This document shows, in pieces, positions 16,290 to 27,559 of a DNA stretch of 30,053 nt (position 1 is the stretch's first letter; the number at the start of each line of letters is the position of its first letter). The notes beneath the pieces are model-generated. The model ran no database searches and was not told the DNA's origin. It saw only the letters and a list, made by a program, of their open reading frames with translations. The DNA is taken from positions 1 through 30,053 of the IMG/VR virus record IMGVR_UViG_3300011114_000229, one strand, 5' to 3'. This stretch comes from a virus. The translations under genes were made by a program, and so were the position numbers.

Positions 16290-16469
16290 ATGAACATCGA
16301 AAAAATTGAATACCAATGTGCCGAACACCTTGTTTCTTACGCAGAAACAATGGCTGACGCTTACATCAACCAACCAGAGGACTTAGAAGCCGCTATGACT
16401 GCTTTATTTGGTCGGGCAATAGAGATACACCTAAACCGCAAAATCAACTTGGAGAACCTATACAAATGA
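16290..16469 (+). CDS. 59-residue early protein, unknown
   Basis: Frame from ATG 16290 to TGA 16467-16469, overlapping the next ATG (ATGA). Sequence begins MNIEKIEYQCAEHLVSYAET and continues with an acidic helix (NQPEDLEAAMTALFGRAIEI). It is soluble and helical, with no motif I recognise. There is no Shine-Dalgarno; the start codon coincides with the predicted transcription start, so it may be read from a leaderless mRNA. It is first in the rightward early operon, a usual place for host-takeover or regulatory proteins. Confidence 0.65.
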   Translation: MNIEKIEYQCAEHLVSYAETMADAYINQPEDLEAAMTALFGRAIEIHLNRKINLENLYK

Positions 16470-16840
16470 CCCAACAAGCAATTATTCGAGCTTTACAGAA
16501 TGGATCGCTTACTGCCTATGAGATGGAGAATCTAACGGGCATCCCAAGAACCTCTATTGTGGCTGCTTGCAAGAAAATGTTTCGCAAGAAAGAGCTTACT
16601 GTTGAGAAGGTCAAGGTGAGTCGTGCTTGGGTCTGTAGATACACCCTAGAGCCGCACATGATTGAGGCTACAAAAGCCGCCAATGATGAGCCTTATGACA
16701 AGCTAAATCCCTTTGATGTACGCAATGCCAAGGGTATTTTTACCAAGTCTGAGTATGCCGTGATGAACAATCAGGCTAGAAACTTCTACAAAAGCAATCC
16801 TAATTTCACTAAAGAAATCACAAATAATCAATTTATTTGA
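16466..16840 (+). CDS. Helix-turn-helix DNA-binding protein, early regulator candidate
   Basis: 124 residues from ATG 16466. The N-terminal 60 residues show a helix (QAIIRALQNGSLTAYEMENL), a turn and recognition-like helix (GIPRTSIVAACKKMFRKKEL) and a basic strand pair (VEKVKVSRAWVCRYTL), a small winged helix. The C-terminal part ends with PNFTKEITNNQFI. The next strong element is the TTGACA/TATAAT promoter at 16851. It may control that promoter or the divergent operators; this is inferred. Confidence 0.72.
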   Translation: MTQQAIIRALQNGSLTAYEMENLTGIPRTSIVAACKKMFRKKELTVEKVKVSRAWVCRYTLEPHMIEATKAANDEPYDKLNPFDVRNAKGIFTKSEYAVMNNQARNFYKSNPNFTKEITNNQFI

Positions 16841-16850
16841 AAAAAACCTC

Positions 16851-16877
16851 TTGACATCAAGAAAGATTGTGTATAAT
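16851..16877 (+). promoter_or_regulatory. Consensus sigma70-type promoter
   Basis: TTGACA (16851-16856) and TATAAT (16872-16877) both match the consensus perfectly, with a 15-base spacer, slightly short. Transcription would start near 16884. It is the best promoter seen in the window and stands directly before the structured RNA and the replication genes. Confidence 0.78.
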
Positions 16878-16883
16878 CCAAAT

Positions 16884-17036
16884 CGTCTGAGTGGCATCAG
16901 GCGATGAAACAAATTGTAAACCCCATAGATTCCTGTGTGGTCTTGCCAGACAACTGGCGTACTTTTGATTTGTTTCAATCGTCCGTTGTTGCTCTCGCCA
17001 AGAGCCAAGACCACAGAGTGATTTATGGGGTTTTTT
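16884..17036 (+). ncRNA. Structured RNA with own promoter and terminator (sRNA or attenuator leader)
   Basis: From the predicted start at about 16884: a first hairpin GTCTGA (16885-16890) / TCAGGC (16897-16902); helix A, bases 16902-16914 pairing with 16968-16981 (13 pairs, one bulge); helix B, bases 16918-16945 pairing with 17006-17033 (28 positions, over 20 paired), followed by six T. Helix A's 3' arm lies in the loop of helix B while its 5' arm lies outside, so the two interlock as a pseudoknot or are alternative folds. An open frame from 16904 spans this RNA but has no good start. The RNA could act in trans, or decide read-through into the replication genes. Confidence 0.68.
17006..17036 (+). 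terminator. Intrinsic terminator closing the structured RNA
   Basis: The 3' arm of the long stem (17006-17033) ends in GGGG followed by T17031-T17036. Its partner is AAACCCC at 16918-16924. A strong stem directly followed by six T is a classic Rho-independent stop, here with a loop of about 60 bases. Confidence 0.65.
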
Positions 17037-17284
17037 GCGTTTGGCGGCTATGCAATGCGGTACGTCGGTGGTTGCATTTAGGGATACCCTGTTACACGAG
17101 CGAACTAAAGCAGGGGCGGTGGGCTAAGGATAGAGCCGAGTGGTTGGGACGCAAGTCTCAGAAGTCTGTCCGATGCGATGCGATGACATGGCTCCGAAGA
17201 GGAAGTTATCCACAAGCAGAGCGAAAACTGAGTTATGACTCGGTAAGGCTTTGCTTTGCTCAAACATTCACCAAAGAGGAACTT
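17037..17284. other. Non-coding stretch with small hairpins and a DnaA box
   Basis: About 250 bases with no convincing gene. They hold AGGG-ATA-CCCT (17080-17090), ATGCAA/TTGCAT (about 17050-17077), the GNRA-type hairpin GGGACGCAAGTCTC (17146-17159), a triple CGATG repeat (17171-17185), GAGT/ACTC (17230-17241) and TTATCCACA. Composition is richer in G and C than the neighbours. It may be part of a replication origin or a second structured RNA; neither is proved. Confidence 0.45.
17206..17214 (+). promoter_or_regulatory. Perfect DnaA box
   Basis: TTATCCACA matches the DnaA-box consensus TTATNCACA exactly. It lies just before the zinc-ribbon and helicase-loader-like genes in the early operon. 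One box is weak evidence for an origin. Confidence 0.4.
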
Positions 17285-17440
17285 ATGAGGATATGTAAGT
17301 GTGGAGGAGTAGTAGGACAACATCAACTGACAAACAACCGAGAGGCTTGGACTTGTCGTAGTTGTGGAAGATATGAGATTGTTGAATTAAAAAAACCTGA
17401 TAAACCTGAAGATGATAGGAGTGAAGATGGAAAAGTTTGA
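17285..17440 (+). CDS. Small zinc-ribbon protein
   Basis: 51 residues from ATG 17285, preceded by AGAGGAA. The longer frame to 16904 would run through the structured RNA and reads like non-coding sequence, so I reject it. Sequence starts MRICKCGGVVGQHQLTNNRE and continues WTCRSCGRYEIVEL, giving two Cys pairs (CxC and CxxC) for one zinc ion. The tail is Lys/Asp/Glu-rich. Its end overlaps the next gene by 14 bases. Small zinc ribbons in phage early operons often bind DNA, RNA or RNA polymerase, but the partner is unknown. Confidence 0.6.
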   Translation: MRICKCGGVVGQHQLTNNREAWTCRSCGRYEIVELKKPDKPEDDRSEDGKV

Positions 17441-17786
17441 ACTGTTTTGGGCAGCATGGCCTAAATCATTTAGAAAAGGCGGTAAATCTGCCTGTAGAGT
17501 GAAATGGAAGAAGTTTTACTGCGAAACCTGTGCAGACCAGATCATCAAGCACATAGAGTGGATGAAAACAACCGATGCTTGGAGAAAAGACGATGGTGCT
17601 TTCATTCCCGCACCTTTGGTCTATCTAAACCAACAAAGATGGGATGGGGCAGAGATTCCTGAGTCCTTCGGGATCAAAGTTGAAGCGAAAATTGATCCTG
17701 CTCTTGCCAAGATTGAGGCTGACAATAAAAAAGCCACTCCTATGCCTGAACATATCCGAGCAAGATTAGCTGAACTAAGGAAATGA
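17427..17786 (+). CDS. Replication protein, helicase-loader-like
   Basis: 119 residues from ATG 17427, chosen for AGGAG five to six bases upstream. Sequence starts MEKFELFWAAWPKSFRKGGK, then HIEWMKTTDAW, then DDGAFIPAPLVYLNQQRWDG. The pattern F-x-x-FW-x-x-(Y/W)P at the start and F-I-P-x-P-x-x-(Y/W)-L-N-x-x-RW is known from the C-terminal part of phage replication proteins of the lambda O/helicase-loader kind. The N-terminal initiator domain is absent, so this is a stand-alone loader-like module. It would bring the host helicase to the phage origin. The stop overlaps the next frame. Confidence 0.6.
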   Translation: MEKFELFWAAWPKSFRKGGKSACRVKWKKFYCETCADQIIKHIEWMKTTDAWRKDDGAFIPAPLVYLNQQRWDGAEIPESFGIKVEAKIDPALAKIEADNKKATPMPEHIRARLAELRK

Positions 17787-25808: not shown

Positions 25809-27060
25809 CCTGAACTTTAGTCTCCTTCCTTGGCAACAAGAGGTATTCAAAGACACGACTCGGTTCAAGGTTGTGGCTGCTGGTCGTAGGTGCGGTAAGT
25901 CCCGTATGGCGGCAGTTACCCTACTGATTGAAGGACTCAAGTGTCCACAAGGCTCTGCGGTTCTTTATGTGTCTCCTACTATGGGACAATCAAGGCAGAT
26001 TATCTGGGACTTACTGCTAGACCTTGGCAGAGAGGTTATCCAAGGAAGCCACGTTAATAACTTGGACATTACCCTGATAAACGGAGCAAGAATCTATGTC
26101 CGTGGTGCTGATAGACCCGATACTCTTCGTGGCGTGTCTCTGACCTATGCCGTACTAGACGAGGTAGCCGACATCAAACCTGAAGCGTGGGAACAGGTCA
26201 TTCGAGCCAGTTTGTCTGATAAACGGGGTAGAGCACTCTTTATTGGCACTCCAAAGGGGAGAAACTGGTTCTACGATACCTTCAAGCTAGGCGAGAGCGA
26301 GGATGATCCTGATTGGAAGTCATGGCACTTCACCACTGCTGATAACCCTTTGATTGACCAAAAAGAGATAGAAAGTGCTAAAAAGACCCTAAGTACCTTT
26401 GCTTTTAAGCAAGAATACATGGCTTCGTTCACCAATGCTGGTTCTGACATCTTCAAGGAAGAATGGATCAAATACGGAGTTCAGCCTGAACACGGAAGCT
26501 ATTACATCGCTGTCGACCTTGCGGGATTCGAGGAAGTTGCCAAACAAGCAGCTAACTCTAAGAAGCGTCTAGACGAGACTGCTATCTCAATCGTAAAGGT
26601 TACTGACGATGGGAAGTGGTTTGTTGAGAAGATAGAACACGGAAGATGGGATATTAGAACTACTGCGTCAAATATCTTGATGGCAATAAGAGATTACCGC
26701 CCTTTGTCGGTAGGTATCGAGAAGGGGGCATTAAAAAATGCCGTTCTGCCATATCTTTCTGATTTAATGCGAAAAAACAATATTTATGCCCATATAGTAG
26801 ACCTTACTCATGGCAACAAGAAAAAAGCGGATAGGATTATTTGGGCATTGCAAGGACGCTTTGAACATGGCAGAATCATCCTTAATACAGAAGAAAATTG
26901 GGATGAATTTGTTGACCAACTCATTTTATTTCCAGCTACTGGCGTTCACGACGATTTGCCCGATTCTCTTAGCTATGTAGACCAACTTGCCGTAACAAGT
27001 TATTTTCAAGAAGATAATGATGACGAATGGGAGCCGGTTGATGTTGTCTCAGGTGTTTAA
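25801..27060 (+). CDS. terL: Terminase large subunit
   Basis: 419 residues from ATG 25801. It is the ATP-driven packaging motor and nuclease. ATPase half: Walker A AGRRCGKS (27-34), Walker B VLD120E121, coupling motif LFIGTPKG (about 146-153). Nuclease half: AVDLAG with Asp239, IEKGA with Glu307, and HDDLPDS with Asp384/385 and Asp388, the acidic metal-binding set of terminase nucleases. Length is slightly short but complete. The 3' end overlaps an HNH endonuclease gene by 20 bases, and the last third of the gene is more AT-rich than the first. Confidence 0.93.
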   Translation: MADLNFSLLPWQQEVFKDTTRFKVVAAGRRCGKSRMAAVTLLIEGLKCPQGSAVLYVSPTMGQSRQIIWDLLLDLGREVIQGSHVNNLDITLINGARIYVRGADRPDTLRGVSLTYAVLDEVADIKPEAWEQVIRASLSDKRGRALFIGTPKGRNWFYDTFKLGESEDDPDWKSWHFTTADNPLIDQKEIESAKKTLSTFAFKQEYMASFTNAGSDIFKEEWIKYGVQPEHGSYYIAVDLAGFEEVAKQAANSKKRLDETAISIVKVTDDGKWFVEKIEHGRWDIRTTASNILMAIRDYRPLSVGIEKGALKNAVLPYLSDLMRKNNIYAHIVDLTHGNKKKADRIIWALQGRFEHGRIILNTEENWDEFVDQLILFPATGVHDDLPDSLSYVDQLAVTSYFQEDNDDEWEPVDVVSGV

Positions 27061-27559
27061 TACAAAGTTTTGCTCAAAATGCAAAGAAACTTTATCGGTA
27101 GATTCTTTTTTCAAAAATAAGAGTCGTAGAGATGGATTGCAAGGATATTGCAAAAAATGCAAATGCTTAAGAGATAGGCAATATGACTCTGAACACAGAG
27201 ATAAAGTTAATGAATCTGCAAGAAAAAGAAGATTTGCTGGAGAAACAAGGCAAACACATTTACATGCTTTAAAAAACTACAGGCAAAAGAATAAGGCTAT
27301 TCGTGCCAAACTTCAAATGAATCGTAAAAGTGCGAAATTGTTAAGAACACCACTTTGGTTAACAGAGTTTGACCGCCTAAAAATACAATGCTACTATCAG
27401 GTGGCAGCCATGAGGTCAAGAGAAAGTGGCGAACATTGGCACGTTGACCATATAATCCCATTGCAGGGTAAAACTGTTTGTGGACTTCATGTGCCAAACA
27501 ACTTGCAAATTATTCCCGCAATTGAGAATATGCGTAAGAACAACCACTATGAGGTCTGA
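27041..27559 (+). CDS. Free-standing HNH endonuclease with zinc finger
   Basis: 172 residues from ATG 27041, with GGGAG seven bases upstream, overlapping the TerL end. The first 45 residues hold a Cys4 finger (FCSKCKETLSVDSFF, then GYCKKCKC). The C-terminal part has the HNH active site: HWHVDHIIPLQGK, GLHVPNNLQIIP and NMRKNNHYEV, with His residues for metal binding and the terminal Asn-x-x-Lys. It makes DNA breaks, probably as a homing endonuclease inserted between TerL and portal. No intron boundaries are seen; it lies between genes rather than inside one. Confidence 0.85.
   Translation: MLSQVFNTKFCSKCKETLSVDSFFKNKSRRDGLQGYCKKCKCLRDRQYDSEHRDKVNESARKRRFAGETRQTHLHALKNYRQKNKAIRAKLQMNRKSAKLLRTPLWLTEFDRLKIQCYYQVAAMRSRESGEHWHVDHIIPLQGKTVCGLHVPNNLQIIPAIENMRKNNHYEV

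Follow-up and report, generated by a model that had tools for sequence, protein, structure and literature searches.

The locus and its gene context

The analysed stretch of viral DNA, hereafter the window, is 30,053 nucleotides long and carries a two-part RNA unit on the + strand. The unit lies between an upstream helix-turn-helix gene (16466-16840, + strand), which gives a weak Ren-like PHROG match, and a small zinc-ribbon-like ORF with paired cysteine motifs (17285-17440, + strand), which is the first gene past the unit and has no Pfam or PHROG match. Another + strand ORF (17412-17786) encodes the C-terminal part only of a replication initiation protein (PHROG 9474, profile positions 177-273 of 288), and not the helicase loader that had been supposed at this place. 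The first part of the unit, module 1 of the type we call class 1, comprises a putative promoter, a folded RNA and a predicted terminator. The second part, module 2, is a further structured RNA (17045-17272) into which the unit always continues, and which the original prediction overlooked together with the conservation past the T-run. No tRNA or tmRNA was found in the window. At some distance, an HNH-endonuclease-like ORF (27017-27559) is inserted between the terminase large subunit and portal genes.

Promoter, fold and terminator of module 1

The predicted sigma-70-type promoter (16851-16877, + strand) consists of TTGACA (16851-16856), a 15-nt spacer and TATAAT (16872-16877). On the same strand lie the 5' hairpin P1 (16883-16904; stem 16883-16890/16897-16904, loop GTGGCA at 16891-16896), helix A (16905-16977; arms 16905-16914/16968-16977), helix B, which forms the terminator rod (16918-17033; arms 16918-16945/17006-17033), and helix C (16950-16989; arms 16950-16959/16980-16989), with CTTTTGA and the 3' arm of helix A inside its loop. 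Helix A is pseudoknotted with helix B and also crosses helix C. The rod ends in a run of six T (17031-17036, + strand), where intrinsic termination is predicted. Hairpin D (16991-17005, + strand) has the loop CGCCA, in which GCCA (16997-17000) is complementary to UGGC of the P1 loop (16892-16895), and this loop-loop contact is probably part of the tertiary fold of the RNA. The promoter boxes with their spacing, the 5' hairpin, helix B and the six T had all been predicted at these positions; helix A is present as well, although its proposed arms (16902-16914/16968-16981) were 3-4 nt too long, their outer bases belonging to P1 and helix C.

The minimum free energy of 16880-17040 is -67.1 kcal/mol, compared with -39.7 kcal/mol for dinucleotide shuffles (z-score -7.0), and none of 200 shuffles equalled it. 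An automatic promoter and terminator scan missed both features of the window because it accepted only spacers of 16-18 nt and loops of no more than 8. Rfam 15 yielded no match at the gathering threshold for the window and 16 relatives, nor any for the region at E-values up to 5. 6S RNA is a rod with a large bubble at its centre that looks like an open promoter; the suggestion of a 6S-type rod does not agree with the pseudoknotted fold found here, and no Rfam 6S match was obtained.

Covariation among relatives of module 1

Conservation of the fold was assessed in an alignment of 48 diverse relatives, in which P1, A, B, C, D and the contact between the P1 and D loops were scored. In this 57-pair pseudoknotted structure, 97.3% of the cells were paired, compared with 90.8% after shuffling, while sliding the partners by 1-3 columns reduced pairing to only 33-44%. 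Two-sided changes numbered 178 where 47 were expected, a value reached in none of 500 shuffles, and they affected 20 pairs. Such changes were found in five of the eight pairs of P1 (99.2% paired) and in 7 of the 9 aligned pairs of helix A, several of which use all four Watson-Crick types (pair 34-109, for example, is GC in 23 sequences, AU in 11, CG in 8 and UA in 4). The outer part of helix B showed them in 4 of 9 pairs (99.8% paired; pair 56-165 is GC in 28, AU in 15 and UA in 5), its inner rod being almost invariant, and helix C in 3 of 10 pairs (94.2% paired). Together with the folding energy, these paired changes in both interlocked helices confirm the structured phage RNA that had been proposed. 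Automatic consensus folding, which does not allow pseudoknots, recovered P1, B and D, as well as C in a shifted form, and a covariance model reached a relative as remote as L265 (E = 1e-12).

Helices A and B have no base in common, and each of them is retained in all 48 relatives. They therefore form a pseudoknot and coexist rather than representing alternative states, contrary to the competition between them that had been envisaged. Among the cells without Watson-Crick pairs, G-U (175) far exceeds A-C (27), which indicates that the + strand transcript is the folding molecule. Helix A contains frame-breaking indels in addition to its paired changes, and this is not the pattern of a protein continuously conserved across 16904-17284.

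The contact between UGGC of the P1 loop and GCCA of the D loop is invariant among the 48 relatives and hence has no covariation support. Hairpin D is likewise invariant in relatives picked by the window sequence; this constancy is partly a result of selection, since the search fixes the 27-base core. In relatives found via module 2, the D stem varies (GTTCT/AGAAC, CCC/GGG) while the GCCA of the loop is unchanged. The -10 box (TATAAT, TATACT or TACAAT) ends 12-14 nt ahead of the P1 loop in all 112 measured loci, so that the predicted transcription start is at P1 or next to it; relatives often lack the -35 box.

The post-terminator element and module 2

Immediately past the T-run lies a short element (GCGTTTGG in the window, 17037-17044, + strand; family form GCTTTTGG) that was recorded in 125 class 1 loci. 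It, or a near variant, goes with class 1 whether module 2 is of the alpha, beta-like or gamma type. Since the element tracks class 1 and not module 2, module 1 extends past its own terminator. Judged by complementarity, a helix may form between the element and the 3' strand of hairpin D, CCAAGAGC, with 7 of 8 positions paired in the window, and both strands are almost invariant. In the RNAs that we call class 2, the pairing partner of the 5' loop recurs past the T-run as a weaker copy: this copy forms 5.36 of 7 Watson-Crick pairs, compared with 4.80 in shuffled sets (reached in none of 2000 shuffles), a signal that becomes weak (93 of 2000 shuffles) when GU pairs are allowed and only distinct loops are counted.

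Module 2 of the window, type alpha (17045-17272, + strand), is a second structured RNA with pseudoknots, whose consensus helices covary in an alignment of 46 sequences; no Rfam match was obtained for it. A direct repeat of approximately 8 bases, AAGAGGAA (17197-17281, + strand), has one copy inside alpha, after GGCTCC (17197-17204), and another just past it (17274-17281). The two copies vary in concert, with 8.9 of 12 matches among 79 distinct pairs, compared with 6.5 (maximum 6.8) after shuffling. In its look the repeat resembles a guide or target; a search of 900 nt to either side revealed no complementary partner.

A family of two-part units

The sample of units started from a search of IMG/VR with the upstream helix-turn-helix protein, which returned 199 relatives and 80 virus loci. 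Behind the helix-turn-helix gene there is one of three elements: class 1, the RNA of the window; class 2, a different promoter-terminator RNA; or class 3, a short leader without promoter or terminator. In all 129 distinct class 1 loci, module 2 follows directly as alpha, beta, gamma or a beta-like variant with beta's initial bases ahead of other bodies, 17 otherwise unclassified cases having been judged by eye. The second module is not tied to the first, as class 2 is found with both alpha and beta, and a further type, class 4, with alpha. In the module 2 slot, gamma (L002 3006-3500, L031 and L102) is an unrelated and longer RNA (> 350 nt), and the bodies of the beta-like variants (L131, L139, L183 and L105) are likewise unrelated RNAs.

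Classes 2 and 4 are built alike: the loop of a 5' hairpin finds its pairing partner on the 3' side of the terminator rod. Of the 11 distinct in-register pairs of loop and bulge 7-mers in class 2, 10 are complementary at 7 of 7 positions, as counted by position, the multiple alignment being one column out of register between subgroups; single folds give z-scores of -5 to -7. In class 4 (L242, L247, L266 and L276), CGTAACGGC of the 5' loop has GCCGTTACG of the rod as its pairing partner, the corresponding pair in L266 being CATCGCAGC with GCTGCGATG, and past the terminator stands GCTTTCC, the complement of GGAAAGC in the rod. In the examined sequences of classes 1, 2 and 4, the rod ends in a T-run. 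Module 1 is represented by several alternative RNA types, each with its own promoter and with a 5' loop tied into the terminator rod.

The class 3 loci have another structured leader after the helix-turn-helix gene (L012 5373-5500, L020 5373-5480). The sequence of its hairpin varies while the pairing is kept (GGTACG..CGTACC, GGTTGGG..CCCAACT), and a C-rich stretch is complementary to a G-rich segment ahead of the start codon; no Rfam match was found for this leader.

Distribution

The 27-base core GTTGCTCTCGCCAAGAGCCAAGACCAC occurs exactly in at least 120 IMG/VR virus stretches. The carriers are freshwater phages, numbering in the hundreds, and the family was confined to phages in the searches made. 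Class 1 was present in 21 of 30 long virus records, as a single copy in each except one, which has two matches, one at each end of the record; in the same 30 records, alpha and beta occur in one copy per record and never together. Neither class 1 nor alpha was found in any of 25 records from the first search, nearly all of which are class 3.

A pattern scan of bacterial and archaeal species genomes gave a single match, which lies inside the coding sequence of a sigma-54 activator gene and was taken as chance. Isolated phages gave no match to the module 1 RNA, and weak matches to module 2 in Arthrobacter phages lie within coding sequence and were taken as chance. Units of other classes are present in two uncultured GenBank phages, where hypothetical proteins are annotated over the RNAs (L349, 2477-2704, MW202545; L350, 2329-2688, MW202484).

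Neighbouring genes and the replication initiator

Upstream of the units there is mostly a Cro-like protein, a helix-turn-helix protein or a large terminase, as named by eye from the sequence unless a PHROG matched. The largest downstream ORF is co-directional with the unit in 102 of 105 loci. The downstream genes themselves vary: a short replication protein, a methyltransferase or, after terminase, virion genes. The protein most often encoded downstream is a short version of the replication initiator (Rep), which corresponds to the C-terminal part of its family alone. Class 3 loci (e.g., L005, L012 and L014) mostly encode an initiator of 237-280 aa, with varied N-terminal parts and a constant tail.

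Where the unit stands beside the Rep gene, Rep is 117-177 aa long in 23 of 23 genomes, and where the unit is absent or distant, it is 216-280 aa long in 14 of 14, these being counts from whole records of related phages and therefore not independent (two further records gave no Rep). Most genomes lacking the unit have their minimum of cumulative GC skew inside the Rep gene. When the unit stands beside Rep, the global minimum never falls inside that gene, and in 12 of the 23 genomes it is found upstream of it, at a distance of up to ~1.5 kb. Three genomes whose unit is distant (G001, G011 and G013) have their minimum at or near the full-length Rep gene, 9.6-14.2 kb from the unit. An apparently perfect origin signal in the raw cumulative skew was discarded as an artefact of uneven total skew; it became weaker after detrending.

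Interpretation of the unit

The reading that we favour, with a probability of approximately 0.4, is that module 1 is part of a terminator-gated, two-part leader RNA that heads an operon, as suggested by the sequences compared here. Transcription would start at hairpin P1 from the unit's own promoter and would produce an RNA of ~150 nt locked by the pseudoknots of A with C and B and by the probable contact between the P1 and D loops. Most transcripts would stop at the T-run and free a compact, stable RNA, while a read-through fraction would include module 2 and the operon as well. The folding of the terminator rod may be set or reported by the tertiary tether that holds the 5' loop, and this tether may be undone in the read-through RNA by the element past the T-run, which is GCTTTTGG for class 1 and the repeated, weaker loop partner for class 2. 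Such a leader would be attenuator-like, but its pseudoknot would exist alongside the terminator, in place of an antiterminator that excludes it.

The constant presence of module 2, the element past the T-run and the position at the head of an operon favour this leader over a self-contained small RNA, and conservation past the T-run suggests that read-through matters. We also count in its favour the fold with its covariation, the co-directional downstream ORFs, the similar build of class 2 with its repeated loop partner, and the fact that the same module 2 follows other classes of module 1. Against it stand the absence of a visible mutually exclusive antiterminator and the general tendency of phage genomes to be co-directional.

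Could the terminated RNA itself be the working product? A stand-alone, trans-acting small RNA of ~150 nt, with a 5' end protected by P1 and with a protein or RNA of the host or the phage as its target, is a strong rival of the leader, although we hold it to be less likely; module 2 would then be a second RNA supplied at a lower dose by read-through. The unit's own promoter and terminator, the very stable fold that takes in the terminator, the single copy per genome at varying places and the almost invariant loops, which suggest a binding partner, agree with this view. One unit per genome with differing downstream genes also fits a location-free function better than the control of one operon. 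However, module 2 is never missing after class 1, and the conservation of module 1 continues beyond the T-run, both of which count against a self-contained RNA.

Another question is whether the unit is connected with replication. As an RNA-borne origin, it would be transcribed from its promoter, and the folded RNA with module 2 would mark the start and replace the origin-binding N-terminal domain of the initiator. The short Rep in 23 of 23 genomes with an adjacent unit, compared with full-length Rep in 14 of 14 with none or a distant one, speaks for this idea, as do the single unit per genome and the place of the skew minimum, which is within Rep in most genomes lacking the unit and ahead of Rep in 12 of the 23 with an adjacent one. 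Nevertheless, in G001, G011 and G013 the minimum stays with Rep, 9.6-14.2 kb away from the unit; the minima are scattered in the unit-adjacent genomes; and skew follows gene direction, which switches there too. We consider such an origin improbable. The more specific version, a portable module in which the folded transcript recognises the origin and hands the helicase-loading C-terminal piece to the DNA, is similarly doubtful, and the same low expectation applies to several unrelated RNA types filling the two slots of such a portable origin.

Little credence can be given to processive antitermination of the put type, in which the nascent fold or module 2 would bind RNA polymerase so that terminators in the operon are ignored. 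The unit does head co-directional operons whatever their genes, and antitermination by an RNA alone is known from phage HK022; however, put RNA is ~70 nt long with two stem-loops and no terminator end (PMC9378689), while the fold of module 1 is complete only after the terminator has been made. A chance fold within a coding frame (ORF 16904-17440) has a negligible probability, as this explanation, suggested by the open frame that spans the region and by the GenBank habit of marking such frames as hypothetical proteins, is ruled out by compensatory changes, frame-breaking indels and the bias of G-U over A-C.

Our searches revealed no earlier description of the RNA family, of its classes or of the two-module rule, in agreement with the original prediction, for which neither Rfam nor the literature searches offered a described relative. 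The unit is of a known general kind, that is, a structured, terminator-bearing phage leader or small RNA. A class of pseudoknotted RNA that covaries strongly and occurs in at least 120 stretches of virus contigs, and in none of the bacterial genomes searched, is without a name or an Rfam entry, and related units pass as hypothetical proteins in GenBank. The mix-and-match modules raise the question of whether phage operons are gated by RNA tertiary structure around a terminator. The tie to the shortened initiator raises another: can RNA replace the origin-binding half of an initiator? If the origin reading were true, phages with the unit beside the initiator gene would have dispensed with its DNA-binding N-terminal half.

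Comparison with known systems

The put RNA of phage HK022 suppresses distant terminators via the zinc-binding domain of the RNA polymerase beta' subunit. Like putL and putR, the unit is a structured nascent phage RNA near a promoter at the head of an operon; unlike the ~70-nt put RNA with its two stem-loops (PMC9378689), module 1 is 150 nt long, has several helices and closes in a terminator. With the ToxI RNA of type III toxin-antitoxin systems it shares the order of promoter, pseudoknotted RNA, terminator and downstream gene, and it differs in having a single fold without tandem repeats, no recognised toxin (ToxN-like) gene and a structured RNA as its neighbour. The transcript-primed origins ColE1 RNA II and T4 oriF resemble the unit as folded transcripts from a strong promoter near replication genes, whereas here the RNA includes an intrinsic terminator, and three genomes argue against a putative role as an origin.

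In the fluoride and preQ1 riboswitches, the pseudoknot and the terminator are alternatives. The unit similarly couples a leader pseudoknot to an intrinsic terminator, but in contrast to a riboswitch or a classic attenuator, whose terminator and antiterminator overlap in sequence and are mutually exclusive, helices A and B have no common base and are both conserved, and the downstream genes (replication, methyltransferase, virion) are not metabolically coherent.

The lambda PR' leader combines a constitutive promoter, the 6S RNA and the tR' terminator with a Q-dependent late operon reached by read-through. By its sequence, the unit likewise appears to have a strong promoter and, behind it, a short leader that ends in a terminator, and it resembles PR' in its short RNA with an intrinsic terminator, its operon that would be reached by read-through only, its exchangeable modules and its presence once per genome. 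We know of no conserved pseudoknot or second structured RNA in the case of lambda 6S RNA; unlike PR', the unit possesses both and often stands ahead of replication genes.
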